A stretch of 64,000 nt of DNA, from the NCBI GenBank assembly GCA_021018995.1, contig CM037585.1:127624831-127688830 (forward strand). The letters are read 5' to 3'. A program made the translations under genes and the position numbers. Positions within the stretch are counted from its first letter, which is position 1, and the number at the start of each line of letters is the position of its first letter. Shown in pieces: positions 17,001-50,800 of the stretch. The DNA is from Chloranthus sessilifolius (taxonomy: Eukaryota; Streptophyta; Magnoliopsida; Chloranthales; Chloranthaceae). Under the pieces are notes generated by a model, which was not told the origin of the DNA, did not search any database, and saw only the letters and a program-made list of their open reading frames with translations.

Positions 17001-20000
17001 AGCTTAGCCCGACACTATGTGTCATAGGTACTGAAGCTACTTGGGAACCCGAACTTGGAGGAGCCCCTACGTTTGCGCCAGAAGGCAAAGGAGATCTTCA
17101 GCTTGAGGATTATTATCCTTAGGCAATTGGTGATTTGGCTTGGTACAAATTAAAGAACTTCTTTTGAACAACTGTCTAAGTTTTTTTCGTACACAGATGC
17201 GATTGCCGCTGTTTGTGTGACAAACGGCCGTCAAAGTGGTTGAACCAGATGGAGAAGATATTCTGTGTGATACCCTGCACGGAAGATGAGAAAGTAAGAT
17301 GGGCATCTTTCCAACTTGAAGGAGAGGCCGACCATTGGTGGAAATCAGTGGAGAGGACTAGAGAACAGGAGACACCAAACACACCATGGACGTGGGCCCA
17401 ATTTACTGAGAAGTACTTCCTCGAATTCGTCAGAGAACAGTGGGAAGTAGATTTCATTTCCCTGACTCAAGGGCAAATGACAGTGATCGAGAACAAGGCA
17501 GAATTCACGAGAATCTCGAGGTTCTCGCGACAACACGTGGCAACTGAAACCATGAAACCCAAGAAGTTCGAACATGGTGTAACACCGAACATCCAGGAGA
17601 GGATCCCCCTATTTAAGTTGAGGACCTACGCAGAAGTCATGGATAGGGACCTCATCGTTGAACGCGATATAAAGATGTATAAATGAAGAGAGGAGCAGAA
17701 TAAGGATAAAGGGAGTCAGACACAATCATTTCTCGACGATCAAACCAATAAAAGGACTAAGTTCTCAATTCCAGCACCGTCTCGGCCAGCAACAGCTACA
17801 AATTTCAGCCAAGCTTCTTCAGTGCCTATGAAGTCCTTTCACCCCTCACAGCCTACTACAACTAAAGCATCGGTAGCACAAAAGACATCATATACCACTA
17901 CGTCCATTCCGCCTGAGTCATGCCCACGATGTGGAAGGAGTCATAAGTTAGAGAATTATCGATGGACCACGGGCTCATGTTTCCGTTGTAGCCATAAAGG
18001 ACATTTGATAAAGGATTGTCCCCAAGAAGAACAAGGAACAAACAACACCGTCATCTACTCAGAGGTTTCGACCTATAGTCCAGGGTCGCACCTACGAGGT
18101 TTCTACCCGTGATGCTCAAGCCACGAACGACGTCATACAACACCGTCATCTACTCAAAGGTCCTCCCAACCTATAGTCCAGGGTCACGCCTACACGGTTT
18201 CTACCCGTGATGCCCAAGCCACGAACGACATTATACAAGGTATAATTTAAATTATTGCCGATTAAAGTCATTGATTCTCCTTCAAGCTAATGAATATTCT
18301 TGATAATCATTCGATTATGAAATTTCATGAACACTATAACATGTAGCTTAGAGTTGATTTATTTAATTATATGAACCCTAGGTACCTTACGCATGTATTG
18401 AAGTAGCGGCATTTGTCAAGACAAGGCACTTGTATTGATAGACCTCGGCTCTACGCACTCCTTTGTGACCTCACAATTTTCCGCCGAATTGAGTATTGCA
18501 CCAGAGCCTTTAGACTTCGTCTTGTCCTTTTCAGTTCCTACGGGAAACTCAGTGATTAACACCATTTGCCGATCGGCCATCGTTCCGATCGAAGATCATA
18601 AAACAACGGTCAACCTGATTATCTTGGACATGCAAGGATTCGATGTAATCCTTGGCATGGATTGGTTATCCACCTACCATGTGAGCGTTGACTGCCTACG
18701 AAAGATGGATCACTTTTCGCCCCTCTAAGGGTGTGTCGTTCAGATTCTATGGCATTAAATCAAGCATCGCACCGTTCATCTCAGCTATTCGAGCTCAACG
18801 GTTATTGAAGAAACGATGCCATGGATACCTCACCTTTATGCAAGACCAACGCAAAGAAAAGGCCAATATCGCAGACATTCCTGCCGCGTGCAAGTTCCTG
18901 GACGTGTTTCCAAAAGACCTGCCTGAATTACCGCCAGATAGAGAAGTTGAATTCTCAATCAATTTACCTTCGGGCACAAAACCTATTTCTAAAGCTCCAT
19001 ACCGTATGGCGCCGGCTGAACTGAAGGAACTTAAGGAGCAATTGCAAGAGCTATTAGATAAGGGGTTCATCAGACCCAGTGTTTCCCCATGGGGAGCCCC
19101 TATCTTGTTCGTCAAAAAGAAAAGACGGTTCGATGAGGCTATGAATTGATTATCGTCAACTTAACAAGTTGACGATCAAGAACCGCTATCCACTCCCTCG
19201 CATTGATGACCTCTTCGATCAACCCCAAGGGGAAAATTTCTTCTGAAAACTGCTTTTCGCACTAGGTATGGTCACTATGAATTTCTGGTGCTGCCCTTCG
19301 GTTTAACAAACGCACCAGCATCGTTCATGGACTTGATGAACCGAGTGTTCAAACCATGCCTTAACCAATTTGCAGTTGTCTTCGTAGATGACATCCTCAT
19401 CTGTTCAAAGACGAGGGAAGCCCATGAGCAACATTTACGCATCACGCTTTAAACTCTTCGTGAGCATCAGTTGTATGCAAAGCTAAGTGCGACTTTTGGC
19501 TCAAACAGGTCGGTTTCTTAGGGCATGTCATCTCTAAAGCGGGTGTAGTCGTTGATCCTGCTAAAATTGAAGTCGTCATGAAATGGGAACAACCAAAGAT
19601 AGTAACAGAGGATTGCAATTTTCTGGGCCTAGCTGGTTATTATAGGAGATTCGTTGAGGGTTTTTCCAAGCTTGCAGGACCACTCACTCAGCTTACAAGG
19701 AAAAATACAAGGTTCGAGTGGAATAGTACGTGTGAAAAGAGCTTCAAAGAACTTATGAAGAAACTGACTTCCGCACCGGTCCTAGCTATACCCTCAGGCT
19801 ATGGGAGTTTTGTAGTGTTCAACGATGCATCACACCACGGGTTGGGTTGTGTGCTAAATCAACATGAAAAGTCATTGCATATGGTTCACGGCAACTCAAC
19901 GACCGCGAAAAGAACTATCCAACTCACGACTTGGAACTAGCGGCAGTGATCTTTGCCTTGAAATTTGGAGACACCTCTACAGAGAAACATTTGAAATCCT

Positions 20001-23000
20001 CACAGACCACAAAAGTCTAAAGTACCTCTTCACTCAGAAGGATTTGAACATGAAACAAAGGAGGTAGATAGAGTTTCTTAAAGACTATGATTGTTCAATC
20101 CAATATCACTCCGGGAAAGCAAATGTAGTAGCCGATGCACTAAGTAGGAAGTCATCTGCGCAGTTGTCTAACCTTGCTACAAGAATCCATCGATGGCAAC
20201 TATTTGAAAGTATTTCTTAGGGCATGTCATCTTTGAAGCGAGTGTAGTCGTTGATCCTGCTAAAATTGAAGTTGTTGTGAAATGGGAACAACCAAAGACA
20301 ATAACAGAGGGTCGCAGTTTTCTGGGCCTAGCTGGTTATTATAGGAGATTCGTTGAGGGTTTTTCCAAGCTTGCAGGACCACTCACTCAGCTTACAAGGA
20401 AAAATACAAGGTTCGAGTGGAATAGTACGTGTGAAAAGAGCTTCCAAGAACTTATGAAGATACTGACTTCCACACCAGTCCTGGCTATACCCTCAAGCAA
20501 TGGGGGCTTTGTAGTGTTCAACGATGCATCACACCACGGGTTGGGTTGCGTGCTAAATCAACATGAAAAAGTCATTGCATATGGTTCACGGCAACTCAAG
20601 GATCGCGAAAAGAACTATCCAACTCACGACTTGGAACTAGCAGCAGTGATCTTTGCCTTGAAATTTGGAGACACCTCTACAGAGAAACATTTGAAATCCT
20701 CGCGGACCACAAAAAAGTCTAAAGTACCTCTTCACTCAGAAGGATTTGAACATGAGACAAAGGAGGTGGATAGAGTTTCTTAAAGGCTATGATTGTTCAA
20801 TCCAATATCACCCCGGGAAAGCAAATGTAGTAGCCGATGCACTAAGTAGGAAGTCATTTGCACAGTTGTCTAACCTTGCTACAAGAATCCATCGATGGCA
20901 ACTATTTGAAAGTATTTCCTAATCTGATGCAAAATTCACTATGAAGGCCTCAGGGGCCTTAATGGCTATCATAACAAATGTAGTCCAGGGGGACAAACCT
21001 GATTTCTCTCTACGAGAGGATGGTGCTCTACTCTTCAAAGGACGACTTTGTGTGCCATCCAACATTCAAATTCGGCGTCAGATTCTTGATGAAGCACACA
21101 AGTCAAAATACACAATCCACCCAGGAAGTACAAAAATATATCAGGATCTTAAGAAAAGTTTTTGGTGGAGAGGTTTAAAATAAAAGGAGATACTTGAATA
21201 CATTTCAAAATGCATAGTTTGCCAACAAGTTAAGATCGATCATCAAAACTCATCGGGTTTGCTACAACCGTTACCCATTCGTGAGTGGAAGTGGGAGAAT
21301 ATTTCCATGGATTTTATCATCGGTCTACCGAAAACTATGAAAGGGTATAATGTCATTTGGGTAGTGATCGACCGATTAACAAAATCCGCACACTTTCTAC
21401 CTTATCGTACTACGTACACCGTCGATCAACTAATCGACTTGTACATCAGAGAAATCATCAGACTTCATGGCATTCCGATTAGCATCGTCTCAGATAAAGA
21501 TCGATTACTCACTTCAAAGTTTTAGCAGAGTTTTCAAAAAGGCATGGGTTCAAGGTTAGACTTCAGCTCTGCTTTTCGCCCTCAGTCTGTCGGTTAAACA
21601 GAAAGGGTAAATCAAGTTATTGAAGATATGATTCGGGCTTATATGTTAGATTTTCGGGGATCTTGGGACAAACATCTACCGTTGATCGAATTTGCCTACA
21701 ACAATAGCCACCAGGTAAGCATTGGGATGGCTCCTTTTGAACCGCTTTATGACCGGAGGTGCGAATCTCCACTAAATTGGGACGAGGCTAGAGAAAGAAT
21801 ATTGTTAGGCTCAAAACTTATTGAGAGCACAACTGAAGTCATTAAGGTGATCCGAGAAAGACTAAAGACTGCACAAAGTCGATAGAAGAGTTATGCAGAC
21901 CTATGTAGAACGAATGTTGAATTTCAGGTAAATTGATGAATAGTTGTTATTTTTAAATTTTTTGAAATTATTTATATTCCCCATACAGTCATACGAAAGT
22001 TGTTTTTCAGAAAGGGGACCGTCTTTATCAAAATATCACCAACAAAGGGAGTGATGTGATTCGAGAAGTGTGGAAAATTGAGCCCACGATACGTTGGACC
22101 CTTCGAGATTTTGGGTCAGGTCAGTGAGGTTGCCTATCGGATAGCATTACCACCCCAGCTATCCAGCATGCACGTCTTCCATGTATCTATTTTACGGAAG
22201 TACGTAAAAGACCCAACTCATGTCTTGGACTATTAGCCGATTGAGCTACACGAGGAATGACCGTTATTGAGGAGCCAATGCAAATCCTTGATCGTAAAGA
22301 ATAAGTCTTGCGTGCAAAACGGATTCCGCTTGTACTTGTGAAGTGGCAGAATCATTCATCCAAAGAGGCTACCTGGGAGCGCGAGGTTGATATCCGTGAC
22401 AAATATCCGAATCTCTTCAAATAAGGTATGAAATCTTTCGAGTACCAACATTCGATGAATTTTACGATAGAACTTAACACCAATTATTGAGCGATCACAG
22501 CCAAAATTTTGCTTTCAGGAAACTTTCTGAAGTCATTCGCTTGAGCGACCTTTCATTTTCGCTCGAGTGACACCTTCAGAGTTATTTTTTTTTTACAAAA
22601 TATAAAATTCAGTCATTTTTCGCTCGAGCGATAGCGGTTACCGCTCGAGCGAGATCCCTTATTTCCCCCTGGTTAAAACTTCTGTCACTTTTCGCTCGAG
22701 CGACATTCAGTTGTTGCTCGAGCGATTTTGAAATCGGCTCTTTGTACATTACATACTAGCTCGAGCGACAACTAGTTGTCACTCGAGCGAACTTGACGGA
22801 TTATATACCCCTAGCAATAGTTCCTCTTCAATTTCACACGCGATTTTGCTATCGAAACGTTCCAGCTACCTTCTCCGCACGCGAGAACTCGTCGTGTTGC
22901 ACAATGTTATCGACTTTCGGCACCTTCTCTTCTCTTGCACGTACTTTCACCTATTTCCTTGGCGCCAAAGGTAACATTTATTTTTTAAATTGAAATACAC

Positions 23001-26000
23001 CTAAGAGGACAACGTCTTCAAAGAGTATCCGGACTGATCCCCCACTTACAAAAGAGAAACCCAATCCACGGTGGAGTGGTAAAACCTTCGAACCCAAGTG
23101 GTCATTCCATCGGGACTACTTCATGGATGAACAAACTACACAATGGGCGTTGAACTATCTTGCTCAAGCCCAATTGATGGCCCTGCTCACACCTTTCCAC
23201 ACACACTACTATCCTCGCCTAGTTAGCTTATGCTACCAAAATCTCGAGGAGCATGAGACCACCATCACCACGAAGATCGATGGACGGGTATTCCGCTTCG
23301 ATATTAACCATATTGTGGCAGCCATGGGGTGCCATACGATTTTCAGACAGGATTTCGGGCCTACAAGCACCGGCCTCAGAACTAACATCATTTCCAAACA
23401 TTGTTGCTGAAATGGGCCGTGGAGAGCAAGGATCTGAGCAATCAGTACGGAGAGCCCAATTACCAGCCCATATGTGGCTATTGGAAATTTTTTCAAGAAC
23501 CTATATCATGTTCGACATTAACAGGAGCGTGTGGGCATACTTCCCCAGGCCCTTTTCTCTACCTTTAGAGGGCGCTGGTTCAATGCGCCTGCAATTCTGT
23601 TTTGAAGGGTTACTTTACGCCCATGGAGCTATGCTTCCACCTTCGTTGAAAAGGAAGCCATTGACCTCAATCCCCTATGCTCGCTTGATTTCTCGTCTCA
23701 TCGATGAATACGAAGACGAGTTGGATGATTATGTGGTGCCACCTGATGAAGAAAAGAGAACTAATAACGTTAGGTATTATGGTATGGACGAGTGGAGTTT
23801 GAATTATATGAAGATAAACAAAAGTGCTCAGGATCGAGAATTCTAACGCATAGCCGCCTGTGCACAAAATGAACCTGTTGTCCAACCACAGGAGCCTCCA
23901 CCACAGCAATCCCCATTCCAGCATGTACTTGCCCCCTAGGATGATTGGATCACCCAGGCTGAATTCAATCGTTGTATAGATTTCCAGGATGCCCCTGCTC
24001 ATCGAAATGATGAGCAACATGTTTCCAACGGATTCGACTGCACACATCGCAAGAGCTCGCACTCATGTTGTTGGCTCGTCTAGTTCGCAACCCGGAGGGG
24101 GCATCGAGGAGGAGGTCTACTAGACCGATGAGGAGGCGGACTAGTAAGGGAAAATGGTCATTAGGTTCTTTTTTTGTTTAACTTTGTGGTTGCGACAATT
24201 TTCTAACTCTTTTTACTAACGGTATCAGTGTGCTTAAATTTGTTTATTAAATTTGTTTATGGTATCATTGTATTTTATTGAAGGTTTTTGCTGAATGGTA
24301 CCAACATACTTTTCTCAATTGTTTGATCGTATTAATAGACTATTGTTAATGGTATCAATTGTCTACTATGTCAGTTTGAATCAAAACATAGAAATTGTAA
24401 AAAATCTTGTGCCAAATTTTCAAGGACGAAAATTTCAGAGGGGAGAATGTAACGATTCAGATATCTTTACCTTAGTCGAACAATTGACCCATTAGATGTG
24501 GCCCTTCAAACCAATTTCATTTGAGAAGCATGAACAAATACGAAATCTGAAGCGACCTTCGGATTATTAAGTGCGCAAATTTTCAAGGACGAAAATTTTA
24601 AAAGGGGGGAAGAATGTAACGGCCCAGATTTTCGTACCAGTAATATACCTAGATGTCGTATTTGTGGTTAATAACGTTTGGTCTTCAAGCTTCTATATTT
24701 AATTAAGTCATTAGTTAACACAAGTCATGTGATAGCCTACTAGTTAAAGGTTTGTTATTGAGTGAATAAGATGCAACTGGTATTGTGATCATCCTATTGA
24801 GCTCGTGAAATTTTTAGCTTAGCCCGACACTATGTGTCACAGGTACTGAAGCTACTCAGGAACCCGAACTTGGAGGAGCTGCGTTTGCGCCAGGAGACAA
24901 AGGAGATCTTAAGCTTGAAGATTCTTATCCTTAGGCAATTGGTGATTTGGCTTGGTACAAATGAAAGAACTTCTTTTGAACAACAGTCTATGGTTTTTCG
25001 TACACTGATGCGAATGACACTGTTTATGTGACGAACAGCCGTCACCGGTGACACATTACTTTGGATGGATGGTTTAGTTATAGATGTTGAACATTTATTT
25101 CAATTTATAATAGTTTGATCTCCATTGATACTAATTGAAACTCTGTCGAGTCATCACATTTTCATCCATGTACCTTGATTTAGACCATTGAGGATCCTCA
25201 TCAGAATCCTATAGAGAAACCTTCGGCCCACAACAAACATAAGGGAAGACTCAGATACTTTACTAGAAGATTACTCGAATTGCACCCAAAAAAGAGTTGA
25301 AATCGGCCAGCTAAGCCTCACAAGTTCGCCCATTCATACTAGTAGACTTACTGATGTTAATCTTCTGCCCAGAGACGACTCAAAACAATGGAGAATGAAT
25401 TTGATGTAGAACAAATGGGCTCTACTAGTGTCACAAAACAGAATAAAATTGTCATCAAATTGAAGATGGGATACTCACCCCCATTGATTTGAGATGTTAA
25501 AGCCCTCAATATCACGATTATGCACTCCGAGATCGATTATGCACTCCTTAGACTTCTCCAGCAAAGTTAAATAGAAAGGGAGAAAGAGGATCCCCTTCCC
25601 GGAGTCCCATTTAGCAAGTGAAGAAACCATTAGAGGACCCATTTATTAGAATCGAGAAGCGTTTCAAATAGATACAAGCCTTAAGCAACTCCCTCCATTT
25701 GCTACCATAGCCCATCCTATTTAGCAAGTAATCAAGGAATCCACAACACACCCTATCGTAGGCTTTCTCCATGTCCAACTTACAGACAATGCCTGCTTTT
25801 TTTCTCCACATTTCTTGAATGAATGCATTCATACGCTAATCAAGGAATCCGCAACTCATCCTATCATAAGCTTTTGCTATGTCCAACGTATAGATAGGCT
25901 TGGGGAAATGTCGGTTAACACCTGAACCTTTCCTTCACTTTCCAAAATAGTCATTGCATTTACGCTCATTGCATCTCCCCCCCTATGATAGAACTGGTGA

Positions 26001-35800: not shown

Positions 35801-38800
35801 ATTGTCGGGCAGTAAAGAGGTGGAAATTAGAGAGAAGGGGGGATTTGTGTCAATATCATTCGGGTCGAGGCCAGAACCGGAACGTTTTGTGTAACGACCC
35901 TAAAATTCTGAGACTTTCTGACTGCTTTGGTATACGTGTTTGGCACGGAAATCAAGGCAAATTTAACATTTAATAATAAGAATATTAATGTCAAGAGTAA
36001 TAATCCGTAAGCGTGTGAAGTGAGATGTCACTTACGACACATGTCTGAGATGCGATTAGAGCCTTCGTAGGATGTTATATATGTGAGTGTAGTGTATGCA
36101 CCCAACACCGGAGCGTAGGATTAGAAATGGAGAAATATCCTGGATATTTCCAAGAGTTAGCTTATAAGAGAAGGAAGAGAGTTGGAATGCATTCTCTCTA
36201 CTCCTCTTTGCTCCCCTGTCGATTTGTGGCTAAAAGAGTTGGTTCTGAAGTCTTCTGCTGTGAAACCAAGTGTGAGAGAAACCTAGATTTCGGATCCTCT
36301 GGGTTAAAGCGTGAAGGAATCAACGTGTGGACGTTGAATACATTTGAGAGAGCAAAACACATCAGTGTGTTAGCGTGGAGTCGTATCTCTGGTGCTTCGG
36401 AGAGCACAAGTGGTAAACTCTTCGATTCGGATCTGAAACCCATGTCGGATCGCAAATGTCGTGAACCAAGAAAGCAAAGCTAAAGGAGTTGAGTTATTAT
36501 GCATTTGTAGGAGATTTACATGTCATAATTATATATTTAATGAGAGCTTGAATGATTCGTGGAGAATCATAAAGGCTATGGTTGAAAAGGGTTAAGGATC
36601 AACGATCTGTATTAATAACAGAAACTGTCATTTCCGATCGATCAAATTGAGTATTTGATCGATCAAACTAAAATCCGATCCATCAAATTTGAGATTTGAT
36701 CGATCGAATTTTATAAATCCCTTATGTAACAGAAGGGTGATTTTTAAGAGGTTGAGGCCCGATATGTCCGATCAATCAAATTGAAGATTTGATCAATCAA
36801 ATTTGGAGCTGATCGATCAAGTGTGAGCTGATCGATCAAGTGTGAGCTGATCGATCAATGTAGAATTGATCAATCGAACAGTAAGAATGATCGATCAAAT
36901 TGGGGATTTGATCGATCGAATTTTATAAATAACCTATAGAACAGGAGGTTTGTTTTTCTGAATTTTTTAACCTTGAAAATCCGATCGATCAAACTTGAGG
37001 ATTGATCGATCAAATTGAGGATTCGATCGATCAAATAGGAAGATTGATCGATCAAGTTTCCTTTGTATTGAAAAGTTGAAATGTTGGTTTTGATCGATCA
37101 AAAAATGAGAATTGGTCGATCAACTTGTGAATCCGATCGATCAAATAGGAAATTGATCGATCGAATTCCCTGGTTTGGCCTATTTTGGTTTTTTTGGGAA
37201 AAACACTACTAGGCAGTGTACTATTTTCTGTTCTAACACTTCTGACACTTAGTACACCATCCGTATGGTCTAGGTCAAGACCAGGACACTTTAAAAAGCT
37301 TTGGATTTGCTTAGAGAGACCTGATCTGAGGTAGGGGAAATTCAACCTAACTTGTATCCAATTTGACTGCATGGTTTCTAAGTATCTGTATCTGACTTCC
37401 GTTGTTTCAAAAGCATGCCATGCATATGATAAAGTTCTGTTATCTCTAATTTTTGTATCTCTGCTCTGCTCTGATTCCTAATATATGCTCTGATTTAAAG
37501 ATCATGTGACGAATCCCGCTGACATGACAGGATATCCACGACCGGCACGGCGGAATATCCGTGTATCTGATTTGTAAACCCCCTGGCACAAGTTGCTCTC
37601 CTTTAAAGAGGCTTGATGCAAATATCTGAAATTGTTCATTGAACGATGATAGTCAAGGTTACCCATCGGCACACATCTGGCTACCACGTGTTATATTCAC
37701 GGGAGTTACTTAAGTATAGAATTTAAGTCATTAAATATTGTATGCATGCATCTGGAAACTCTGAGAATGTAGTCTGTTTCTGATACTTCTACATCTGATA
37801 TCTGATCACATGTCTACATTTGTTTTGTTCTGTCTGCACTCGCTGATTTAATCATTTGTTCTGAGTTATGTTCTGCAAACCATGTTTTACATTTTAGATA
37901 CAATTTACTTGAGTTTCTTCTATTTAGCTTAGATGGTTAGCTCACTTTGTTTCTATATAATAGGTTCTGATGCTAGGGCTCTCGGCACGGAGAGTGATCC
38001 TGATTATCAACCCGAGGTGGAGGCTGAGGCTGAGGCCGTGGAAGACACTGATATCCCTGCTGACGAGTTCTATCAATAGCTAGGGTATTAGTTTTATGTT
38101 TTGGGTTCTGTACTTGTATTTCTATATTATTTGTGTGCCTGGTGGCCACTTTCTGTATTTATTTACTGTAGATGTTTTATTTATAGCATTATACATTCTA
38201 TAGGAACCACTATTGGGAACCATTGTTTTGAGTGATGGATGTCCATCACTAGTGGTTCTTCTTGATTCCTTTTTGAGGATGTATATTCTTTTTATTTACA
38301 TATATGTATTGTTTTGTTCCTTTCTTTTATTTTAGAGCCTTATATGATAACTTGTACGCTCGATTTCCGCTAAACTGACGAGACACTCTTTAATTTGTTA
38401 GGATCATCCGAGTTATGATCTGATGGGAATGATTACAGGTGCAAAAATCGTCACGGTTGGTATCGAGCCTGGCTTTAAATTTGAACCACGGGTTTAGGTT
38501 TGATTGTTTTTACAATCTATGTACTGATCAATGTTGTTGTTTTCACAATGACAGACCAGTATAATGGGCCCAAGGTTCAACAGCTGACGTGGTAGAGGAA
38601 GAGAGGGACCGAGATTGGTTCCAATGCGAGAGATCCCTGAGGTTACTGGTACATCTCGGGAATTAGGATTCCTATCGGGTGAGAATGTTGTTTCAGTAGG
38701 ACCAAGAAGGGGAAGAGGAGGTGGTGATAGTAGAATGGAGCAGGTGTTGGAAACTTTCGCTGCCAACGTAGCTCAACAGACGGCTGCGATGAATCAACAA

Positions 38801-41800
38801 GCAGCTAGACCACCTCATCAACCTGGCGGCTTTGCTGAGTTTAGGAGAATGAGACCTCCTAATTTCTCAAGTCAGATAGATCCTATTGAGGCTGAAGGTT
38901 GGATAGAGGAGATGAAGAAAGTTTTTGAAGTGCTTCAATGCACTGATGTAGAGAAGGTGCGTTGGGCAACCTTCAAACTCAATGGGGAAGCGAGGCCTTG
39001 GTGGAAATCAGTATCAAGACATCGAGAGCAAGAACTTCCCAATACCCCTTGGACGTGGGCTGAGTTCGTTGAAACTTTCAACGATAAGTACTTTCCCAAG
39101 ATTGTGAGGCATCAGTGGGAAGTGAAGTTTATCAAGTTGGAACAAGGAGCTATGATTGTGCACGAGTATAGTGCCGAGTTTGATATATTATCAAGGTTTG
39201 CTCCGCAGCACGTAGCCACCGAGTCGATGCGAGATTGGAAGTTTCAGCTTGGCTTGAGACCAAACCTACAGAAAGAAGTGGTCATATGGGAGTTGGAGAC
39301 ATATGCAGCAGTTATGTCTAAGGCTCTTATTTCTGAAGAGGAAAACCATATGCAATTTGCTTAGAGAGATAGGCAAAACAAAGATAGGTCATTTCAGGGA
39401 CAATCTCATGACCCTGAGCAGAACAAGACGGCTATGTTCTTCAGACCTCCTAGATACCCTACTCACTCTAGGCCAGCAATATCTTCAGGACCGAGTTCTT
39501 ATCAGAGGCCAGCAGCACCTGTATCATCCAAACCATTCAGATCGTCTGGTTCTTCAGTTAGTGGAGCTTCTATCGCACAGGGATCTTCACGGGTCTCTTC
39601 TTTTACTCCGGCTCCATCATGTGCCAAGTGTGAGAAACCACACAAGACTAAAAACTGCAGAAGAGATACAGGAGCTTGCTTCAAGTGGCAAGATGGGTCA
39701 CATGGTTAAGAATTGCCCTAAGGAAAGCAAGGAAAGCAAGGAGCGAGTTGGATCGGTATCCACTCAGAGGTCTTCTCGACTTGTTGTTCAAGATCGAGCA
39801 TATGTCGTCACCGCAATGGATGCCCCGACATCAAATGATGTCATCCAAGGTATCTTTATACTTTTGAGAGTTAATTTAATTCTTTGATATTCATTAATAT
39901 AGCATGCTTTGATAAGTTTATGCATAGGAATATTAGTGATTCTGTACCCTTAACTTGTATGTTTAATATACAAATAAAAAAAGGTACCCTTGTCATGCGT
40001 CGTAAAGGCAACGAGAGTTAAGCAGAAGCTCGTGTATTGATAGACCCTGGGTCTAGTCATTCGTTTATCACTTCGTCGTTCTCCGAGAAGTTAGGCATCA
40101 TCCCCAAGACCCTTGATTTTATCTTGGTTGTATCTGTACCTACGGGAAATTCAGTAAACACAGATACGGTATGTCAGTCAGTTATAGTGATGATTGAGGA
40201 TCACGTGACGATGACTGATATGATCACTTTGGATATGGAAGGGTTTAACGTAATCCTTGGAATGGATTGGTTGTCAGAATACCATGCAAGTGTGGACTAT
40301 CTTCAGAAAATTGTGACCTTCCGACCTCCAAAGAGAAAGTCCTTTCGCTTCTATGGAATCAAATCCAAAGTCGCACCGTTCATTTCAGCTATTCGAGCGG
40401 AGCGTATGATGAAGAATGAATGTTGTGGATATCTTGCTTACTTGCAAGATCATTAGGAGAAGAAGAGTGACATCGCTCTTATCACCGTTGCATGTGAATT
40501 CCCAGATGTCTTTCCTGAGGAATTACCCGAATTGCCACCGGGTTGGGAGATCAAGTTCGCAATTGATTTAGCACTGGGTACTGAACCGTTGTCAAAGGCT
40601 CCGTACAAAATGGCGCCTGCTGAGTTAAAGGAACTGAAGGAACAACTTCAGGAACTGTTGGACAAAGGTTTCATCAGGCCGAGTGTGTCTCCTTGGGGAG
40701 CACCGGTTTTATTTGTGAAAAGAAGGATGGTTCGATGCGGCTGTGCATCGATTACCGTCAATTGAACAAGATGACGATTAAGAATCGTTACCCACTTCCA
40801 CGGATTGACGACCTCTTTGATCAGTTGCAAGGTGCGAGGTTCTTTTCAAAGATTGATCTAAGGTCAGGTTACCACCAACTTAAGATTAAGGTGGACAACG
40901 TTTCCAAGACCGCATTCCGCACTAGGTATGGTCATTACGAGTTCTTGGTTATGCCGTTTGGGCTAACGAACGCACCGGCATCGTTCATGGACTTGGTGAA
41001 CCGGGTATTCAAGCCACACCTCGATAAATCAGTGGTGTTTTTTGTTGACAATATCCTCATATATTCAAAGACAAGGGAGGAACACATTCAGCAATTACGA
41101 GTTGCTCTTCAAACACTCAGGGACAACCAACTGTACGCCAAGCTTAGCAAATGCGAGTTTTGGTTTGATAGGGTCAGTTTCTTAGGCCACGTTGTTTTTG
41201 AGGAGGGTATAACGGTCGATCCTGTAAAAATCGAATCTGTAGTGAATTGGGAGCAACGGAATACGGTAACAGAAGTCCGTAGTTTCCTTGGCTTAGCGGG
41301 ATATTATAGACGGTTTGTAGAAGGGTTCTCTAAACTCTCAGGTCCACTTACTCAGTTTACAAAGAAGAACGCTAAATTTGATTGGACAAAGCAGTGTGAC
41401 AAGAGCTTTCAAGAACTCAAAACTCGTCTGACTACAGCACCAGTGCTAGCTATACCTTTTGGTGGAGGAGGTTTTGCTATATATAGTTATGCGTCTTACA
41501 GTGGATTGGATTGTGTTCTCAATCAACACAAGGTTACCGCTTACGGCTCTAGACAACTCAAGGAACACGAGAAGAGTTATCCCACACATGATCTGGAGTT
41601 AGCAGCGGTAATTTTTGCTTTGAAGATCTGGAGGCACTATTTATATGGTGAGACATTTGATATCTTCACTGACCACAAGAGCCTTAAGTATCTATTCACC
41701 CATAAGGACCTGAACATGCGACAACGAAGATGGATGGAGTTCTTGAAAGATTACGATTGTTTCATCCAGTATCATCCTGGGAAGGCCAACGTAGTAACGG

Positions 41801-44800
41801 ATACTTCTAGTCGAAAATCTTCAGTTCAGTTAGCGCATCTCATTGCGAGGGTGCATCGGTGGCGCTTGCTTGAGGGCATGGCCTTATGTGATACGAGGTT
41901 CGATGTGAAAGGTTCAGGCTCTTTGATGGCCACCCTTGTTATCAGGCCGACATTGTTTGAAACTATTCGTAAACTTCAAATGGTCGTGATGAGCTTATGA
42001 CCATTAGACAGGGTGTGATCAGCGGGACCAGAGCAGATTTCTCCATTAGGGATGATGGTACTTTATTATTTCAGGATAGCGTGCATACCTATTAATGTTG
42101 AACTCCGAGACACCATTTTAGAGGAGGCTCATAAATCCATATACGTTATACATCCTGGGAGTATCAAGATGTATCAGGACTTGAAGAAAAGCTTCTGGTG
42201 GAGATGCTTGAAGGACGTAGCAGAGTACGTGTCCAGATGCTTAGTCTGCCAGCAAGTAAAGGTAGATCATCGGAATCCAGCGGGATTGTTGCAACCTTTG
42301 CTGATACCTGAGTGGAAATGGGAAGCCATTTCTATAGATTTTATATTGGAGTTGCCGGAGACGTTGAGGAAACACAATGCCATCTGGGTCATTGTGGATA
42401 GACTGACCAAGTCTGCACACTTTCTGCCGTACTGTACTACGTACGCCGCCAGCAAGCTTGTAGAGTTGTATCTTAAAGAGATAGTCAGACTTCATGGTAT
42501 ATCAGTCAGTATTGTGAGTGATCGAGATCCGCTTTATACATCACAGTTCTTGCAGAGATTTTAAGAAGGCATAGGGTCTAAACTTGATTTCAGTTCAGCG
42601 TTTCATCCTCGGACTGATGGGCAGACTGAAAGAGTGAACCAGATCATAGAGGATATGTTACGAGCATGGATGTTAAAACTTTCACGGGTCATGAGATCAA
42701 CATTTGTCTCTAATTGAGTTCGCGTACAGTAATAGCTATCAGTCTAGTATTGGCATGACTCCCTACGAAGCTTTATACAGACGACGATGCAGATCTCTGT
42801 TGAATTGGGAGGAAGTCGGTGAGAAACTTACTTTGGGACCTGATATCGTGGACAGTACAACCTAGACGGTTCGATTGATCCGCGAGAGATTGAGAGTTGC
42901 TCAAAGTCGCCAGAAAAGTTATGCCAATCTTCATCGAGCGCAAGTCGGGTTTCAGGTATACTTGATTGTGTTCAATACATTAAGTATCCTTATCTGCTCA
43001 ATTAGTATTGAGCTAACACCTGTTTTCAGGTAGGAGACGAGGTCTTTGTCAAGATCTCGCCAACCAAAGGCGTGATGCATTTTGGGAAACGTGAAAAGCT
43101 AAGTCCGCTTTACATTGGACCTTTTGAAGTGCTAGGTCAGGTTGGAGAAGTCGCATATCGGATTGCAATGCCACCACAGTTGGCAAGCATGCATAATGTA
43201 TTTCATGTTTCGATGTTGAAGAGACACGTGAAAGACCCAACACGCATTCTGGATTTTCGGCCGATTGAGCTTCAAGAAGATCTAACCCTGGTAGAAGAAC
43301 CTACGCAGATTCTAGACCGTAAGGAGCAGATGTTACGGACTAAGGTGATCCCACTAGTGCTAGTAAAGTGGCAGAATCATTCTTCTACGGAGGCTACCTG
43401 GGAGCGGGAGCGCGAAGCCGAAATTCACGAGCAATACCCACAGCTGTTTCTTTGAGATGCGAGGTAACAATTAAACTTGAATTACCTCGTTATGTACTTA
43501 ATATTTGATGATAAAGTACAATTACTCTGATGTTAAATAGTGTTTGATACATGGAATGCTAGTGTATCAGTAGGAGATAACACTTGGTTCTTAATATTAG
43601 GCTCACAGGTCAGTTACACTTGAAAATTTAGAAAACAGCTTTGTTGTTAAATTCGATCGATCAAATTAAGGGTCTGATCGACCAAACACTTATCTGATCG
43701 ATCAAACTAACTAGTTGATCGATCAACCATGCATTCTATTTTGACCCATTCGATCAATTAAAGGGAGGATTTGATAGATCAAATGTGAATCCGATCGATC
43801 AAACTGAAGAGTTGATCGATCAACCGACTTTGAATTTTGTGCTATGTGCGACCTATCCGATCGATCAAATTTGAAATTCGATCGATCAATCTATCGAGTT
43901 AGGATTTTTTCATTTTGAAATCCGATCAATCAATTTAGCATTGATCGATCGAATCTATCGATTTAAGTGGCGCTGGATTTTAAAATACGATTTAAGTGGC
44001 GCTGGATTTTAAAATACCCATTTTGAACGATCAAGGAAACTCAATCAAGCGAGAGCACCTTGCTTCCTTTGCGTTCGAACTTGATTTTCAGCTACTCCCG
44101 GCTGCCGGAGCTCCGCATTTTTGTTTCCTTGGATCGTGTTTCGATCTTCTAACACGGTAAACCCTCGATTTCTCAATTCTTTTGGGGTTTTTGGTTTATT
44201 TTGTCATTTTTAATCTATGGGACAGCAAACGAAGAACGCGTCGCATAAAGCCCCTACCTCACGGGCTCGTGTGCCCATACCACAGGTTGAACCAGTCGTA
44301 CAACACATTGTACAACCCGAGGCACCACCCGTGCCACCCATTCAACCACCCCAACAACCACTCATCGAACACGAATTACCAAAAGACTGGTGGAATGCCA
44401 AAATCTTCTTGCCCGAGTACGAGTTCACCCCGACTCTCTTTGAAGATCGACCCGAAATGGTATGGGCGATCAAGTACATAACCAACCTAGGGCTCAAACC
44501 CTTACACGAGCCCTTTCACGATCAACTATTGCCCACGCATAGTGAGGTTATTTTACCAACACCTTAGACGGGGCGGTAACTGTCATCTAATGATTACGAA
44601 AATCGATGGGTTGGAATACAAGTTCAACCAATTCCACGTCTCCGCCGCCTTGCAATGCCCATTCGGGTATGTGGAGACGTGTGATTTAGCGGCACCTATG
44701 TGAAGGATGTTCCCTTTGAGGACGTCGTCGCAAAGATGATGCACGGGCTTCAAGGATCGGGCCAATCGATCAAATGGGCCCAACTTCCCGACAATTTATG

Positions 44801-47800
44801 GATGCTTGATACCTACATCAAGTGTACCATCTACCCGTTACACAAATCTGAGCGTACGGATATAGTACAACAATTCCTCTTCTCGGCCTTCGAGAACCGT
44901 TGGTTCTTCATTGCCGACATCGTTATCGATGGCATGCTTGATGTCGTGGATCGGATGTCCGAGAAGAAGACCAAGCCTAAGAAAGAGATGTCATATGCCC
45001 GACTAATTACACGGATGGTCGAGCAATACAATGTCGTACGGGAGGCGTATAGTATGGCATCGGGGGAACCAAGACGGAACAATAACATAAGGTTTTCCAA
45101 CTAAAGGACTGGACCAAAAGCTACAACCTTTTGGTGAAGATATTACCCGAGGAAGAGGAGGTTCCACCCGTTGAGGCCGAAGCCGAGGCTGCTGAGCGAG
45201 CTCCAGATGTGGAGGAGGCACAGCCTGACCTTCCACCTCAGCCTGAGGTCCCTGCTTGACCGGCACCCGTTCCACAGCGCCGACCTACTCGTGCTAGCAC
45301 CGCAAGCCGTCCTGAGCCTTCCACTGCTACACTCGAAACTGTGTTTGCGGCGTTCAACGAGGGCAACAAGAGGGTTCACGAGAGGCTTGATGAGATGCAG
45401 GAGTTCCATCATCAGGTGCATTGACGATTGGACTTTCATGAGGGGATGCTCACTCTACTGATGCAGCACGCTTATGCGACCACTGCTACCGCCATGATCG
45501 GTCATGCCCGCCTGCATGCAGTGGATCCTCGTGATTACAGTGTCGAGCCATCCAGACCCAACCAACCGGACATACCTACGGAGCCAGGTTCATCATCCGC
45601 TCCACCAACAGGTGACCACTATACTTTTATGTTATTTTTATAATTATATAGGTATATATAACTCTGTTTTCCATAATAAATTTCTTCTTTGCATGCACGA
45701 TTATTCCTGCATGATTTCTGTTTTGACTGTTTCTGCCTGTTTTATTCGATATTTGTTTTGCATGTTGTGTACTCTGCTCTGTCTGATACCTCTGACTTAA
45801 CTGGTTAGATACTGTGTGTGTGGTTGTTTGAGTCACCGTGGAGTGTTCTTCCGAGCACTTAACACTTGGGACGGATGCAATCCACTATGACATTCTCGGA
45901 TGTCACACGCAGTACATCCAGGTTACTACGGATCCGAGCCCTTCATACGCGTGCTTCGCAAAGACTATTGCACTGTGACCCACTCTTATAGTTAGGATTG
46001 TTTATTCTGCTTCGTTCTGAAAGTTAGGACTAGGGAATACCATAGACCTGTCTGAGTCTGACTGACATTTTCGAGGACAAAAATTCCTAAGGGGGGGAGA
46101 ATGTAACAACCCTAAAATTCTGAAATTTTCTAAATTTTTTGGTATACGTGCTTGGCACGGAAATCAGGGCAAATTTAAAATTTAATAATAAGAATATTAA
46201 TGTCAAGAGTAATAATCTGTAAGCGTGTGAAGTGAGATGTCACTTACGACACATGTCTGAGATGCGATTAGAGCCTTCGTAGGATATTATATACGTGTGT
46301 AGTGTATGTGCTCAACATCGGAGCGAAGGATTAGAAATGGAGAAATATCCTGGATATTTCCAAGAGTTAGCTTATAAGAGAAGGAAGAGAGTTGGAGTGC
46401 ATTCTCTCTACTCCTCTTTGCTCCCCTGTCGATCTGTGGCTAAAAGAGTTGGTTCTGAAGTCTTCTGTTGTGAAACCAAGTGTGAGAGAAACCTAGATTT
46501 CGAATCCTCTGAGTTAAAGCGTGAAGGAATCAACGTGTGGACGTTGAATACATTTGAGAGAGCAAAACACATCAGCGTGGAGTCATACCTCTGGTGCTTC
46601 GGAGAGCACAAGCGGTAAACTCTCTGATTCAGATCCAAAACCCACGTCGGATCGCAAGTGTCGTGAACCAAGAAAGCGAAGCTAAAGGAGTTGAGTTATT
46701 ATGCATTTGCAGGAGATTTACATGTCATAATTATATATTTAATGAGAGCTTGAATGATTCGTGGAGAATCATAAAGGCTATGGTTGAAAAGGGTTACGAA
46801 TCAACAATCTGTATTAATGACAGAAATTGTCATTTCCGATCGATCAAATTAAGTATTTGATCGATCAAACTATAATCCAATCGATCAAATTTGAGATTTG
46901 ATCAATCGAATTTTATAAATCCCTTATGTAACAGAAGGGTGATTTTTAAGAGGTTGAGGCCCGATATGTCCGATCGATCAAATTGGAGATTTGATCGATC
47001 AAATTTAGATGCGATCGATAAAATTGGGAATTTGATCGATCAAATTTGGAGCTGATCAATCAAATTAGGAAGTGATCGATCAAGTGTGAACTGATCGATC
47101 AATTGAGAATTGATCAATCGAATAGTAAGATTGATCGATTAAATTGGGGATTTGATCGATCGAATTTTATAAATAACCTATAGAACAGGAGGTCTGTTTT
47201 TCTGAATTTTTTAACTTTGAAAATCCGATCGATCAAACTTGGGGATTGATCGATCAAATTGAGGATTCGATCGATCAGATAGGAAGATTGATCGATCAAA
47301 TTTCCTCTGTTCTGAAAAGTTGAAATGTTGGTTTTGATCGATCAAAAAATGAGAATTGATCAATCAACTTGTGAATCTGATTGATCAAACAGAGAATTGA
47401 TCAATTAGATTTCCTCTGTTCTGTCTGTATAGGAGGAAGACATCCGATCAATCTATTGATGAATTGATCGATCAGATGTGAATCCGATCGATCAAAGAGG
47501 AAATTGATCGATCGAATTCCCTGTTTTGGTTTTTTTGGGAAAAACACTACTGGGCAGTGTACCATTTTCTGTTCCGACACTTAGTACACTATACGTATGG
47601 TCTAGGTCAAGACCAGGACACTTTAAAAAATTTTGGATTTGCTTAGAAAGACCTGATCTGAGATAGGGGAAATTCAACCTAACTTGTATCCAATTTGACT
47701 ACATGGTTTCTGAGTATCTGTATCTGACTTCCGTTGTTTCAAAAGCATGCCATGCATATGATAAAGCTCTGTTATCTATGATTTATGTATCTCTGCTCTG

Positions 47801-50800
47801 CTCTGATTCCTGATATATGCTTTGATTTAAAGAGCATGTGACGAATCCCCCTGACGTGACAGGATATCCACAACCGGCACGGCGAGATATCCGTGTATCT
47901 GATTTTTAAATCCCCTTGCACAAGTTGCTCTCCTTTGAAGAGGCTTGATGCAAATATCTGAAATTGTTCATTGAACGACGATGATTGGGGTTACCCATCA
48001 ACACACATCTGGCTACCACGTGCTATATTCACGGGAGTTACTTAAGTATAGAATTTAAGTCATTAAATACTGTATGCATGCATCTGAAAACTCTGAGAAT
48101 GTAGTTTGTTTCTGATACTTCTGCATGTGATATCTGATCACTTGTCTGCATCTGTTCTGTTATGTCTGCACTCACTGATTTAATCATCTGTTCTGAGTTA
48201 TGTTCTGCAAACCATGTTTTACATTTTAGATGTAATTTACTTGAGTTTCTTCTATTGAGCTTAGATGGTTAGCTCACCCAGTTTTTATATAATAGGTTCT
48301 GAGGCTAGGGCTCTCAGCACGGAGAGTGATCCTGATTACCAGCCCGAGGTGGAGGCTGAGGCCGAAGAGGACACTGATACCCCTGCTGACGAGTTCTATC
48401 AGTAGCTAGGGTATTAGTTCTGTGTTTTGGGTTCTATATTTGTATTTTTGAATTATCTCTGTGCCTGGCAGCCACTTTTCTATATTTATTTATTGTAGAT
48501 GTTTATTTATAGCATTATACATTCTATAGGAACCACTATTGGGAACCATTGTTTTGAGTGATGGATGTCCATCACCAGTGGTTCTTCTTGGTTCCGTTTT
48601 GAGGATGTATATTCTTTTGATTTACATATATGTATTGCTTTATTCTTTTCTTTTATTTTAGAGCCTTATATGATAACTCGATTTGCCACTTTCGATAGTG
48701 TCTTCTCTAATTTCCGTTAGACGAGCAGACACTCTTTGGTTTGTTCCGGGGATCATCCAGAGTTATGATCCTGATGGCACAGGTTTCCGGGTGCAGAAAT
48801 CCGGGCTGTCACATTTTGGGCGGAATTTTGAACCATGGTTCAAATATCTACTCAATGATATGAACCTTTCTACACAGCCTCTAACTGTGACATCCATTAA
48901 GCTTGTATGAAATTCAACATGCAAACTAGAAAAAGAAATCAAGTTTCGCCCTTATTACTTGGATGCAAAAGACAGAGCATGAATGGGAATGAGAGCAGCC
49001 AAAAAGCCCCATACCAGTACATAACTAACAACACAGTGTTAACTCATTTACAGCTTGGAAAAAATAAATGTGAAAACTGTAAGAACAAACATGCATCAAA
49101 AACATTGAACACTAAGCAAATGTGGATAACAAAAATCCCAATCCAAAATCAATATCCAGCTGTAAAAGCTAGCATCAAAAACATTGAACACTAAGCAAAT
49201 GTGGATAACTAAAATCCCAATCCAAAATCAATGTCCAGCTGTAACATGCTAGCCAGTCTCTTTGACAATGATGTAATTCTCAAATGCATAGCATCACGCA
49301 TAAGGATGGGTGAACCCTATGGGAATCTCACATGCCAAAAATTGGCCTCAACTCAAATAGGCTAATATAGCATAAAGCATATCAGATTTTACAAGTGTTT
49401 GATAAAATAGGATTTAGATCAGGCAATATAGAAAACCAAATCCAAGTCACGTAAACAGTATGACCTCTATAAGTGGAATTTCCATGCCATTCATGTCGCT
49501 TTTTTGCTAAAGATCATAAAAAATCCAAAGAATACTATTCTATTTGATTATCAACCAATTAATAGATAAGTGTGTCATATATGCAAGAAACAAGCAAGCC
49601 ATTCATTGATTTTGGATAGAAAATTCTACAGTATATCAAAACATAAGCAAGAAACAAGAAAGCCATACATTGATTTTGAATAGAAAATTCTACAGCATAC
49701 AAAACCATATGCCAGAAAGGAAAAAAAAAAACTGACTTTACGTAATTCTTTGTGTATCAGATTACATGCAAGCCAATCTACATATAAATCACAGGATTTG
49801 TGTATGTGGAGATATTAATTGGCATTGGCATATGGTACACTGGATGAGATCAAATGTCTATAACAACAGTAGCATGCAAACTCATAATGACTCTGATCAA
49901 AGCTAAAAATTTCCACAAGAAGAATTCACTGCCACAATCTTGTCTTTATTGAGAAAAACGTACGTCAAGGTAAAAATCCATCCTGTAAGAGAAAATGGCA
50001 CTGATGATTGGATTATCGAAAATTATGGCCGAGTTGCTTAATAAAGCTACACAAATAATGGCATATATTCTAGTGGGTATTGGTATATCCATGTTCTCTG
50101 TTTTGAGGGGACGATCAAAATGTATGTCAACCATATCAATATTGTTTCATTTGTTTTTGCATTTTGTGAATTGCCCTCTTAGTCTTTAACTGAAATCAAT
50201 TAACTTCACAGTAAATGAGAGCTTTTGCTAGTAAAAATCTTGTCAATAATCAACCATGTACGTACTAGTTTCCATTTCCGCCTAACGCATTTGATGAATG
50301 CTTTGAATTATGAACAAACAAATAAATGAAAGAATGTTGGGCATTTTATTCAAGACTGATTAATTTGCAAGCAAGACACGCTTCCAATATGATCAATAAA
50401 AATATTATAAACTACACAAAAAAAGAGAAATAACGATAGGAACGAAACATTGCAACCATTATCAACCACAGTGGACATTAAGAACCTTCAGGCACTTCAA
50501 ATATGAAATATGCATAACCATTGCCCCTGGGATTATTCGGATGTTAAGAGGCTTGGACACTTAGGTTATCAGAAAAAAAAAATTGCATAAACATGGTCCA
50601 TTCTTTTCACTAAAACTAAAAAATTAAAATAATGACAGCCATGCCATAAACAGTACCTGCACTATCCAATCAACACCCGGAATGTCAAGTCCCCGTGCTG
50701 CTACATCAGTACATAGAAGAATACCACTTGAAAGGGCTGTAAAAGAAGCCAATGCTTTCTCCCTGGCAATCTACAGAATGATCAAAAGCATGCATAATTT

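Follow-up and report, generated by a model that had tools for sequence, protein, structure and literature searches.

The 64-kb window of Chloranthus sessilifolius DNA analyzed here, by which we mean the whole stretch, contains element B (35890-48813), which is a Ty3/gypsy chromovirus. Its 5' LTR (35890..38456, plus strand) starts with TGTAAC, its 3' LTR (46092..48813, plus strand) follows a polypurine tract that ends at about 46091, and the 5-bp target duplication TTTTG flanks the element at 35885-35889 and 48814-48818. The two LTRs are 91.8% identical over 2541 aligned columns. Between them, all on the plus strand, are a gag piece (38588..39361; Retrotrans_gag, 3.1e-17), the reverse transcriptase and RNase H (40624..41997; RVT_1, 2.2e-31; RT_RNaseH, 6.9e-29), an integrase piece (42019..42561; Integrase_H2C2, 9.6e-16), and the integrase C-terminus with a chromodomain (43012..43452; SH3_Tf2-1, 6.4e-24; Chromo, 1.1e-05). 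The order of the pol domains, with the reverse transcriptase at 40624 preceding the integrase at 42019, is that of Ty3/gypsy elements, and the chromodomain (PF00385) scores 25.6 bits against a cut-off of 25.1. The LTR start, the tRNA-Met-like PBS, and the chromodomain ending of B resemble those of the Tekay/Del lineage, to which it may belong. An extra open reading frame (aORF; 44217..45640, plus strand) lies downstream of the chromodomain in the sense orientation, with its pieces in different frames.

Palindrome arrays of element B

Element B carries three arrays of the 8-bp palindrome GATCGATC. Array 1, in the 5' LTR (36636..37162), has 20 palindromic units in groups of 4, 8, 4, and 4; array 3, in the 3' LTR (46838..47513), has 26 units in groups of 4, 10, 4, 4, and 4; and array 2 (43655..43950), located between the chromodomain and the aORF, has eight exact units. 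The initial annotation, made from the sequence alone, overlooked array 2 and a second element in the window, described below. All 46 starts that it listed for the LTRs carry the motif or a decayed copy of it, but the exact word is found at 15 of the 20 starts in the 5' LTR and 16 of the 26 in the 3' LTR; among the 15 others, 14 have one mismatch, GATCAATC being the commonest form, and one (47399) has two. The statement that many copies extend to TTTGATCGATCAAA was too strong, as the window holds six of them. On the other hand, the grouping by about four is visible, and the unequal number of units in the two LTRs is borne out by alignment gaps of 42 bp within the array and 97 bp right after the last aligned unit.

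The exact word occurs 15, 16, and 8 times in the 5' LTR, the 3' LTR, and the internal region, compared with means of 0.13, 0.13, and 0.06 in 300 dinucleotide shuffles per region. Across 300 shuffles of the whole element, no palindromic 8-mer with a CpG forms a single adjacent pair spaced at 18-23 bp; the observed number is 19. The observed-to-expected CpG ratio is 1.66 in array 1 versus 0.88 and 0.55 in its flanks, and 1.73 and 1.57 in arrays 2 and 3, respectively. Outside the 8-bp core, the units show no clear excess of dyad symmetry (lowest p of 0.026 among 24 tests). An off-register internal unit (at about 43751) was left out of the base-composition, linker, helical-phase, and parsimony counts.

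TATA-like boxes accompany some of the arrays. A TATAAAT (36712..36718, plus strand) stands directly 3' of group 1 in the 5' LTR and a second one follows group 2 at 36924, with the 3' LTR copies at 46914 and 47168. Other TATA-like words stand elsewhere in the LTRs of B, and the third and later groups have none after them. Near the internal array, TTTAAAA is the only such box.

Spacing and evolution of the units

The step of 19-22 bp described in the initial annotation is confirmed for 38 of the 60 adjacent gaps over the three arrays of B, counting sites with at most one mismatch and thereby some that are out of register; 18 of the 38 gaps are 21 bp, 12 are 20 bp, six are 19 bp, and two are 22 bp. 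With exact sites, gaps of 19-22 bp make up 8 of 14, 8 of 15, and 3 of 7 (5' LTR, 3' LTR, and internal), whereas random placement gives 0.9, 0.9, and 0.5. Because the maximum reached in 5000 simulations was five, both LTR arrays exceed chance spacing; the internal array, on exact sites, falls inside the simulated range. The further claim that all dyads point to one side of the helix was not supported for a whole array. Coherence at 10.5 bp over the whole arrays is 0.23, 0.20, and 0.23, which is not above nulls with jittered group spacers, and helical phasing of all B sites at this period was rejected. In a period scan, the best fits of the LTR arrays were at 19.15 and 21.65 bp, and the internal array apparently agrees well with 10.75 bp, at a raw coherence of 0.84.

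How the units multiplied can be read in part from their linkers. Tandem Repeats Finder (TRF) reports units of 19-21 bp in the arrays of B, and the linkers between palindromes are weakly homologous; therefore, tandem duplication built the spacing in B. The palindrome, however, resists change while the linkers drift. Comparison of units gives 94-98% identity at the six non-CpG core positions, whereas linker centers are 37-53% identical and shuffled ones 34-39%; it covers pairs within arrays and between the LTR and internal arrays. The linker comparisons used units closely followed by another (16, 21, and 6 of them), without the one at 43924. Similarly, parsimony over 27 units, leaving out one mostly gapped column and the 5' LTR, places four changes on the six non-CpG core columns and 59 on 13 linker columns (about 4.5 per column). 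The sites persist even though variation in the core is greatest at the central CpG, whose G position reads G in 46 and A in 10 of 57 units. The LTR pair of B, with differences of 11.5% in linkers, 7.5% in cores, and 3.6% in spacers, was not usable for reading selection after insertion, since misaligned units add part of the differences and CpG sites account for 9 of the 12 core changes.

These results bear on whether the arrays are a neutral minisatellite, in which slippage and unequal exchange multiplied a functionless 20-bp unit that chanced to hold a palindrome. The TRF units, the weak homology of the linkers in both B and the second element, and the two-unit length of the 42-bp gap seen when the LTR arrays are aligned all fit this account, but core changes far fewer than linker changes do not, and neutral duplication does not predict that different palindromes would occupy the same two places at a near-equal step in two elements. 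We consider it unlikely. A single tandem unit, which was to refute the idea of a binding array if it explained all spacing, thus accounts for how the spacing of B arose and leaves unexplained the conserved core and the second element.

Element D, the extra ORF, and related elements

The second element, D (15009 to about 25044), is related to B and keeps the palindromy, the near-equal step, and the placement of the arrays, but changes the word. Its 5' LTR (15009..17236, plus strand; 3' limit approximate) was recognized as a repeat with 24615-25044, and its 3' LTR (24615..25044, plus strand) has an internal deletion that took the array. The LTR array (15821..15974) has five units of TCGCTCGAGCGA, allowing at most two mismatches, with gaps of 21, 51, 48, and 22 bp; the internal array (22537..22790) has eight units forming four pairs 21-22 bp apart and precedes the homologous extra ORF. 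Gaps of 21-22 bp number 6 of 11 against about 0.7 expected, and none of 20,000 simulations reached six. The linkers of D keep some homology (0.47 versus 0.32 when shuffled), so duplication may explain part of its step too. Within the LTR, the array lies at 746 bp in B and at 812 bp in D; the internal arrays lie 200 bp (B) and 113 bp (D) past the chromodomain stop. A TATATA (22802..22807, plus strand) lies 11 bp past the last internal unit of D, with the next ATG at 22904; no TATA-like box was found near its LTR array.

The word of B is also the junction that ligation creates in Hi-C or Chicago libraries, as named in the accessible portion of PMC5288721, which raises the question of an assembly artifact. 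This was rejected as extremely improbable: the step is regular, decayed copies are present, the two LTRs share spacers, and the word of D is not that junction.

The aORF region of D (23072..23843, plus strand) is in part similar to that of B, with which it is homologous, and its frames are broken; the pieces are sense-oriented in both elements. Aligned aORF pieces are 30-40% identical, compared with 56% for gag proper and 62-78% in seven of eight segments of the reverse transcriptase and RNase H; the C-terminal gag piece (31% and 49%) and one segment of the chromodomain region (41%) also diverge. In Pfam and NCBIfam, no family reached its cut-off with the aORF and no DNA-binding domain was found. 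Among 5.8 billion proteins, a 139-residue piece had no homologue at E 0.001, in a search whose length window leaves out full-length relatives, and a 296-residue one-frame reading had none at E 0.1. The single match among PDB sequences (E 0.35) is at chance level, and the aORF pieces contain no strong transmembrane stretch. An AlphaFold model of a B piece was uninformative (mean pLDDT of 40) and was set aside.

Among the genome contigs, eight related loci were found, none with a repeated palindrome array, and only one, L002, shows the junction between chromodomain and LTR clearly. In L002, a relative with 67% identity in the reverse transcriptase, no aORF lies at this junction, and the 1.7 kb of LTR covered holds a 63-bp tandem repeat instead of a palindrome array. 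In all, the analysis covered two array-bearing families (B and D) and one good negative. A distant chromovirus, element A, has GATCGATC near its TATA repeats, and no aORF was found in it. No DNA relatives were detected among viral contigs or plasmids. Titles and abstracts on GATCGATC with retrotransposon and LTR mentioned no such array, and none of the matches listed for gypsy palindrome arrays, or for chromovirus palindromes with additional ORFs, described one.

Putative binding sites and known systems

We consider it probable that the arrays are clusters of putative palindromic binding sites for a dimeric protein, which would control the LTR promoter and a probable internal promoter of the aORF. 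This is the best-supported reading because the palindrome outlasts the linkers and because D keeps palindromy, step, and placement with another word; the TATA-like boxes beside some arrays and the lack of both aORF and array in L002 also speak for it. Counting against it are the failure of 10.5-bp phasing across whole arrays, the patchy occurrence of TATA-like boxes, the chance-range spacing of exact sites in the internal array of B, and the residual linker homology of D. In the LTR, the arrays would serve as a control region located before the promoter, and a second copy would do so for the internal promoter. New sites would come from tandem duplication, both of single units of about 20 bp and of blocks of four; selection acting on active copies may retain the palindrome while linkers drift, and the preferred two-turn step (19-22 bp) could let neighboring dimers touch.

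A transcribed array might instead act as an RNA platform, forming hairpins that feed small-RNA production or shield the transcript. Folding is strong, with z values of -7.4, -8.0, and -5.2 for the arrays of B and -8.1 and -5.9 for those of D, versus +1.4 and +0.6 for controls (one of the runs used 20 shuffles). However, any palindrome array folds in this manner, so that folding gives no independent evidence here, and the link to 21-nt small RNAs drawn in the initial annotation is unsupported. Small RNAs are indeed enriched over the palindrome regions of maize Sireviruses (Bousios 2016, cited in the available part of PMC10760457), but this is discussed as recognition by the host, at a cost to the element. 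An RNA role is quite improbable in our estimation.

The closest precedent for this layout is the repeated motifs (RM) of Sireviruses, which are Ty1/copia elements. According to the portion of PMC2829016 available to us, many palindromic copies lie in the LTR, and more just upstream of the extra (ENV) gene when it is present, with local CpG enrichment, a TATA box after the cluster, and a word that varies between elements. B and D likewise have palindromic arrays both inside the LTR and ahead of an extra gene, but their pol is that of Ty3/gypsy chromoviruses. Moreover, 12 of the 13 motifs tabulated in that source have a CGG-CCG core, which is absent from GATCGATC and GCTCGAGC, whereas B and D have a TCGA center and a preferred step of 19-22 bp; the nearest Sirevirus motif in sequence is Tnd-1 (ACAATCGATTGT, Table 3). 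As for a TATA box shortly past the cluster, the picture is mixed: one follows the internal array of D, those in the LTRs of B lie inside the cluster past groups 1 and 2, none is near the LTR array of D, and the internal array of B has only TTTAAAA.

Sense ORFs between pol and the 3' LTR, often called ENV-like, are known in plant LTR retrotransposons, as are tandem repeats in the same region of Retand (available parts of PMC7264820, PMC11963269, and PMC11728184). In contrast to the sense aORF of B and D, the ORFs of Retand and Grande described there are antisense, and that of sunflower Tekay is 5' of gag-pol, whereas the aORF is 3' and had no known domain found.

The dimeric protein could also be the aORF product itself, which would bind the palindromes of the element that encodes it and keep that element active or unsilenced, as VANC does for VANDAL; we hold this possibility to be rather unlikely. 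As far as the consulted part of PMC5735166 goes, VANC binding has been demonstrated to a nine-base motif in one orientation in noncoding tandem arrays, and the system shares with B and D the short-word arrays in noncoding DNA, a word that differs between related elements, and a fast-evolving element-encoded protein. Homologous aORFs accompany LTR and internal arrays in both elements, the aORF diverges more than gag proper and most of the reverse transcriptase and RNase H while the DNA word differs too, and L002 has neither aORF nor array. However, VANC motifs are not palindromic, VANDALs are DNA transposons, the aORF pieces have no Pfam match to DUF1985 or DUF287, no DNA-binding domain or informative structure model supports binding, and the C-terminal gag piece and one chromodomain-region segment diverge as well. 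Element A, which bears GATCGATC and in which no aORF was found, speaks for a host factor. It is conceivable, though doubtful, that in chromoviruses of this type a fast-evolving extra protein and the palindromic word in the LTR and in its own promoter change together as a matched lock and key, each family activating or unsilencing only itself; if true, retrotransposons would have an equivalent of the VANC system, independently arrived at.

With elements B and D, a layout known as a Sirevirus feature is now extended to Ty3/gypsy chromoviruses. The two related elements inside one 64-kb window also present a natural word swap, and with two words and two homologous proteins at hand, a direct swap experiment could decide whether the putative binder comes from the host or is the extra protein that the element itself encodes.

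The palindrome arrays of element B

The chromovirus element B (35890-48813) starts with TGTAAC, ends with CA and is flanked on both sides by TTTTG; its coding order is that of Ty3/gypsy elements (gag, RT-RNaseH, integrase, chromodomain), and its LTR pair shows 91.8% identity across 2541 aligned columns. The initial annotation had reported stepped palindromes in both LTRs. All of its motif positions are correct, but exact GATCGATC stands at just 31 of 46, the remainder being mostly GATCAATC, and the extended 14-mer ascribed to many copies has six occurrences and is absent from most units. A third array, overlooked there, lies at 43655-43950, 3' of the chromodomain and 5' of an extra sense ORF (aORF). 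A 29-bp perfect tandem repeat (43959-44017) follows immediately 3' of this internal array.

Shuffling predicts 0.13 exact GATCGATC per LTR. B has 19 adjacent pairs, 18-23 bp apart, in which a CpG-containing palindrome is repeated, and none of 300 whole-element shuffles yields any. Between exact sites, gaps of 19-22 bp make up 8 of 14 in the 5' LTR, 8 of 15 in the 3' LTR and 3 of 7 in the internal array, against random-placement means of 0.9, 0.9 and 0.5, respectively; as the maximum in 5000 runs was 5, the internal spacing is not significant by the exact-site test alone. The proposal of a single helix face shared by every dyad is not supported: coherence at 10.5 bp is 0.20-0.23 per array, no higher than under jittered nulls. 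The best-fitting periods of the LTR arrays are 19.15 and 21.65 bp, and a period of 10.75 bp nominally fits the internal array, at a raw coherence of 0.84. RNA folding is strong for the arrays and not for control stretches, but any palindrome array would fold by construction.

Elsewhere in the window, sites resembling GATCGATC (AATCGATCGATT, TCGATCGATCGA) also cluster loosely at 27338-27511, in a stretch for which blastn gives no match to element A (a distant chromovirus) or to the 5' LTR of either B or a related chromovirus, element D. A hAT-like transposase piece with a BED zinc finger lies at 59302-60588.

Duplicated units and their core

Judged from the sequence, tandem duplication did produce the units of B, given the 19-21 bp units found by TRF, the weak homology of the linkers to each other, and the gaps in the LTR alignment (42 bp within the array and 97 bp directly past the last unit). 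With LTR versus internal comparisons included, between-unit identity is 94-98% at the six non-CpG positions of the 8-bp core and 37-53% at linker centres (shuffled 34-39%); whole linkers reach 56-58% (shuffled 31-33%). On a tree of 27 units with a close follower (21 of 26 from the 3' LTR and 6 of 12 internal; 43924 excluded), 4 changes fall across the six non-CpG core columns, 6 across the two CpG columns and 59 across 13 linker columns, counts that are a rough measure since the tree derives from the same short units.

Within the core, the CpG is the most variable part. Across 57 in-register units (36636-37162, 43655-43950 and 46838-47513), among which LTR copies are non-independent, its G position reads G in 46 units and A in 10, with 1 other; decay is lopsided, T appearing just once at the C position, whereas the rest of the LTR pair shows balanced CpG losses (11 CA, 9 TG). 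Observed/expected CpG is 1.57-1.73 in the B arrays and 1.54-1.73 in those of D, compared with 0.50-0.91 in LTR flanks.

A second palindrome in the same layout

When all palindromic 8-mers in the window were scanned for adjacent pairs at 18-23 bp and the best eight words considered, GATCGATC ranked first (21 pairs, 50 sites), followed by GCTCGAGC (3 pairs, 10 sites), which belongs to element D; two further words had one pair each. The 5' LTR of D occupies 15009-17236, and its 3' LTR (24615 to about 25044) has lost the array through deletion. Two successive purine-tract-plus-TGTAAC starts, at 24448 and 24615, stand ahead of that LTR, and a tandem duplication of ~700 bp (19514-20918, 95% identity) lies within the D RT/RNase H. 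D matches B at 62-78% identity in seven of eight RT/RNase H segments (58% in the remaining one, of 24 residues) and at 65% in integrase.

The D word is TCGCTCGAGCGA, which shares a TCGA centre with that of B. Counting up to 2 mismatches, it forms five LTR units (gaps 21, 51, 48 and 22) and eight between chromodomain and aORF (gaps 22, 61, 21, 51, 22, 43 and 22). Six of these 11 gaps are 21-22 bp, against a random expectation of ~0.7, and 6 was never reached in 20,000 simulations. The LTR array begins 746 bp (B) or 812 bp (D) from the LTR start, and the internal array 200 bp (B) or 113 bp (D) from the chromodomain stop. Blastn finds no B-D DNA similarity in the LTR or post-chromodomain region. 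Shared placement with different palindromes thus indicates that the layout was kept while the word changed between two related elements.

Similarly, Sireviruses are described as carrying palindromic repeated motifs in the LTR, close to a TATA box, with a further set ahead of the ENV gene in elements that have one; such motifs are called absent from the 'classic' retrotransposons compared in that report (PMC2829016). Palindromes in the LTR and ahead of an extra gene are common to Sirevirus elements and chromoviruses B and D. A maize survey states that an obvious peak of hairpin-like structures is generally missing in Ty3 elements (PMC10760457). No report of this layout in a chromovirus was found in a literature search lying mostly outside subscription titles.

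The extra ORF, putative promoters and candidate binders

The aORF is broken in both copies. Its B and D pieces share homology, with 30% identity over 130 residues (E 3e-18) and 40% over 50 residues (E 3e-10). By tblastn, three pieces show 30%, 33% and 40% identity and the two C-terminal pieces have no B-D match, as compared with 56% for gag proper, 31% and 49% for its C-terminal piece, 65% for integrase, and 64% and 41% for the chromodomain region; divergence of the aORF thus exceeds that of RT and integrase, without clearly exceeding that of the gag end. No Pfam or NCBIfam family scored above cut-off, no strong transmembrane stretch was seen (top 19-residue hydropathy 1.13), and no homologues were found among 5.8 billion proteins with a 139-residue piece (in a length window excluding full-length relatives) or a 296-residue one-frame reading. 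Two contigs with plant-type chromovirus pol, in Streptomyces clavifer (L001) and Mycobacterium sp. (L002) records, are probably plant contamination. In the plant-like L002 contig (RT 67% identical), the chromodomain lies within about 50 bp of a TGTAAC LTR, with no aORF between the two, and no palindrome array was seen in the 1.7 kb of LTR examined; this is a single negative, the other seven of the eight loci recovered from genome contigs being too short or too distant for judgement.

The arrays are best read as clusters of putative dimer-binding sites for the LTR promoter and a probable internal aORF promoter. In both B LTRs, TATAAAT stands after groups 1 and 2 and not after the later ones; TATA-like words also occur elsewhere in these LTRs, and TTTAAAA is the only one at the B internal array. 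In D, no TATA-like box lies near the LTR array. TATATA stands 11 bp past the internal one, with the next ATG about 100 bp further and a stop codon between that ATG and the B-matching part of the aORF.

The binder may be a host factor, as suggested by element A, in which no aORF was found and which has GATCGATC beside TATA repeats. The two long repeats of A (31510-32574 and 34330-35390, 83.5% identical) surround integrase and chromodomain pieces; TCGATCGATCGA sites adjoin TATATATA runs, the first copy has two pairs 20-21 bp apart, and the 17-mer TTGATCGATCGAATTTT is common to A and B. Alternatively, the aORF protein itself may bind, as suggested by word and protein having changed together. VANC proteins bind the fast-changing tandem targets carried by the transposons that encode them (PMC5735166, PMC10398659), extra ORFs occur in Tekay, Athila, Retand and others (PMC11728184, PMC7264820, PMC11963269), and VANC-like action by extra ORFs of LTR elements is posed as an open question (PMC12844716). 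Read as dimer-binding sites, one cluster would serve the LTR promoter and a second would serve the internal promoter of the extra ORF.
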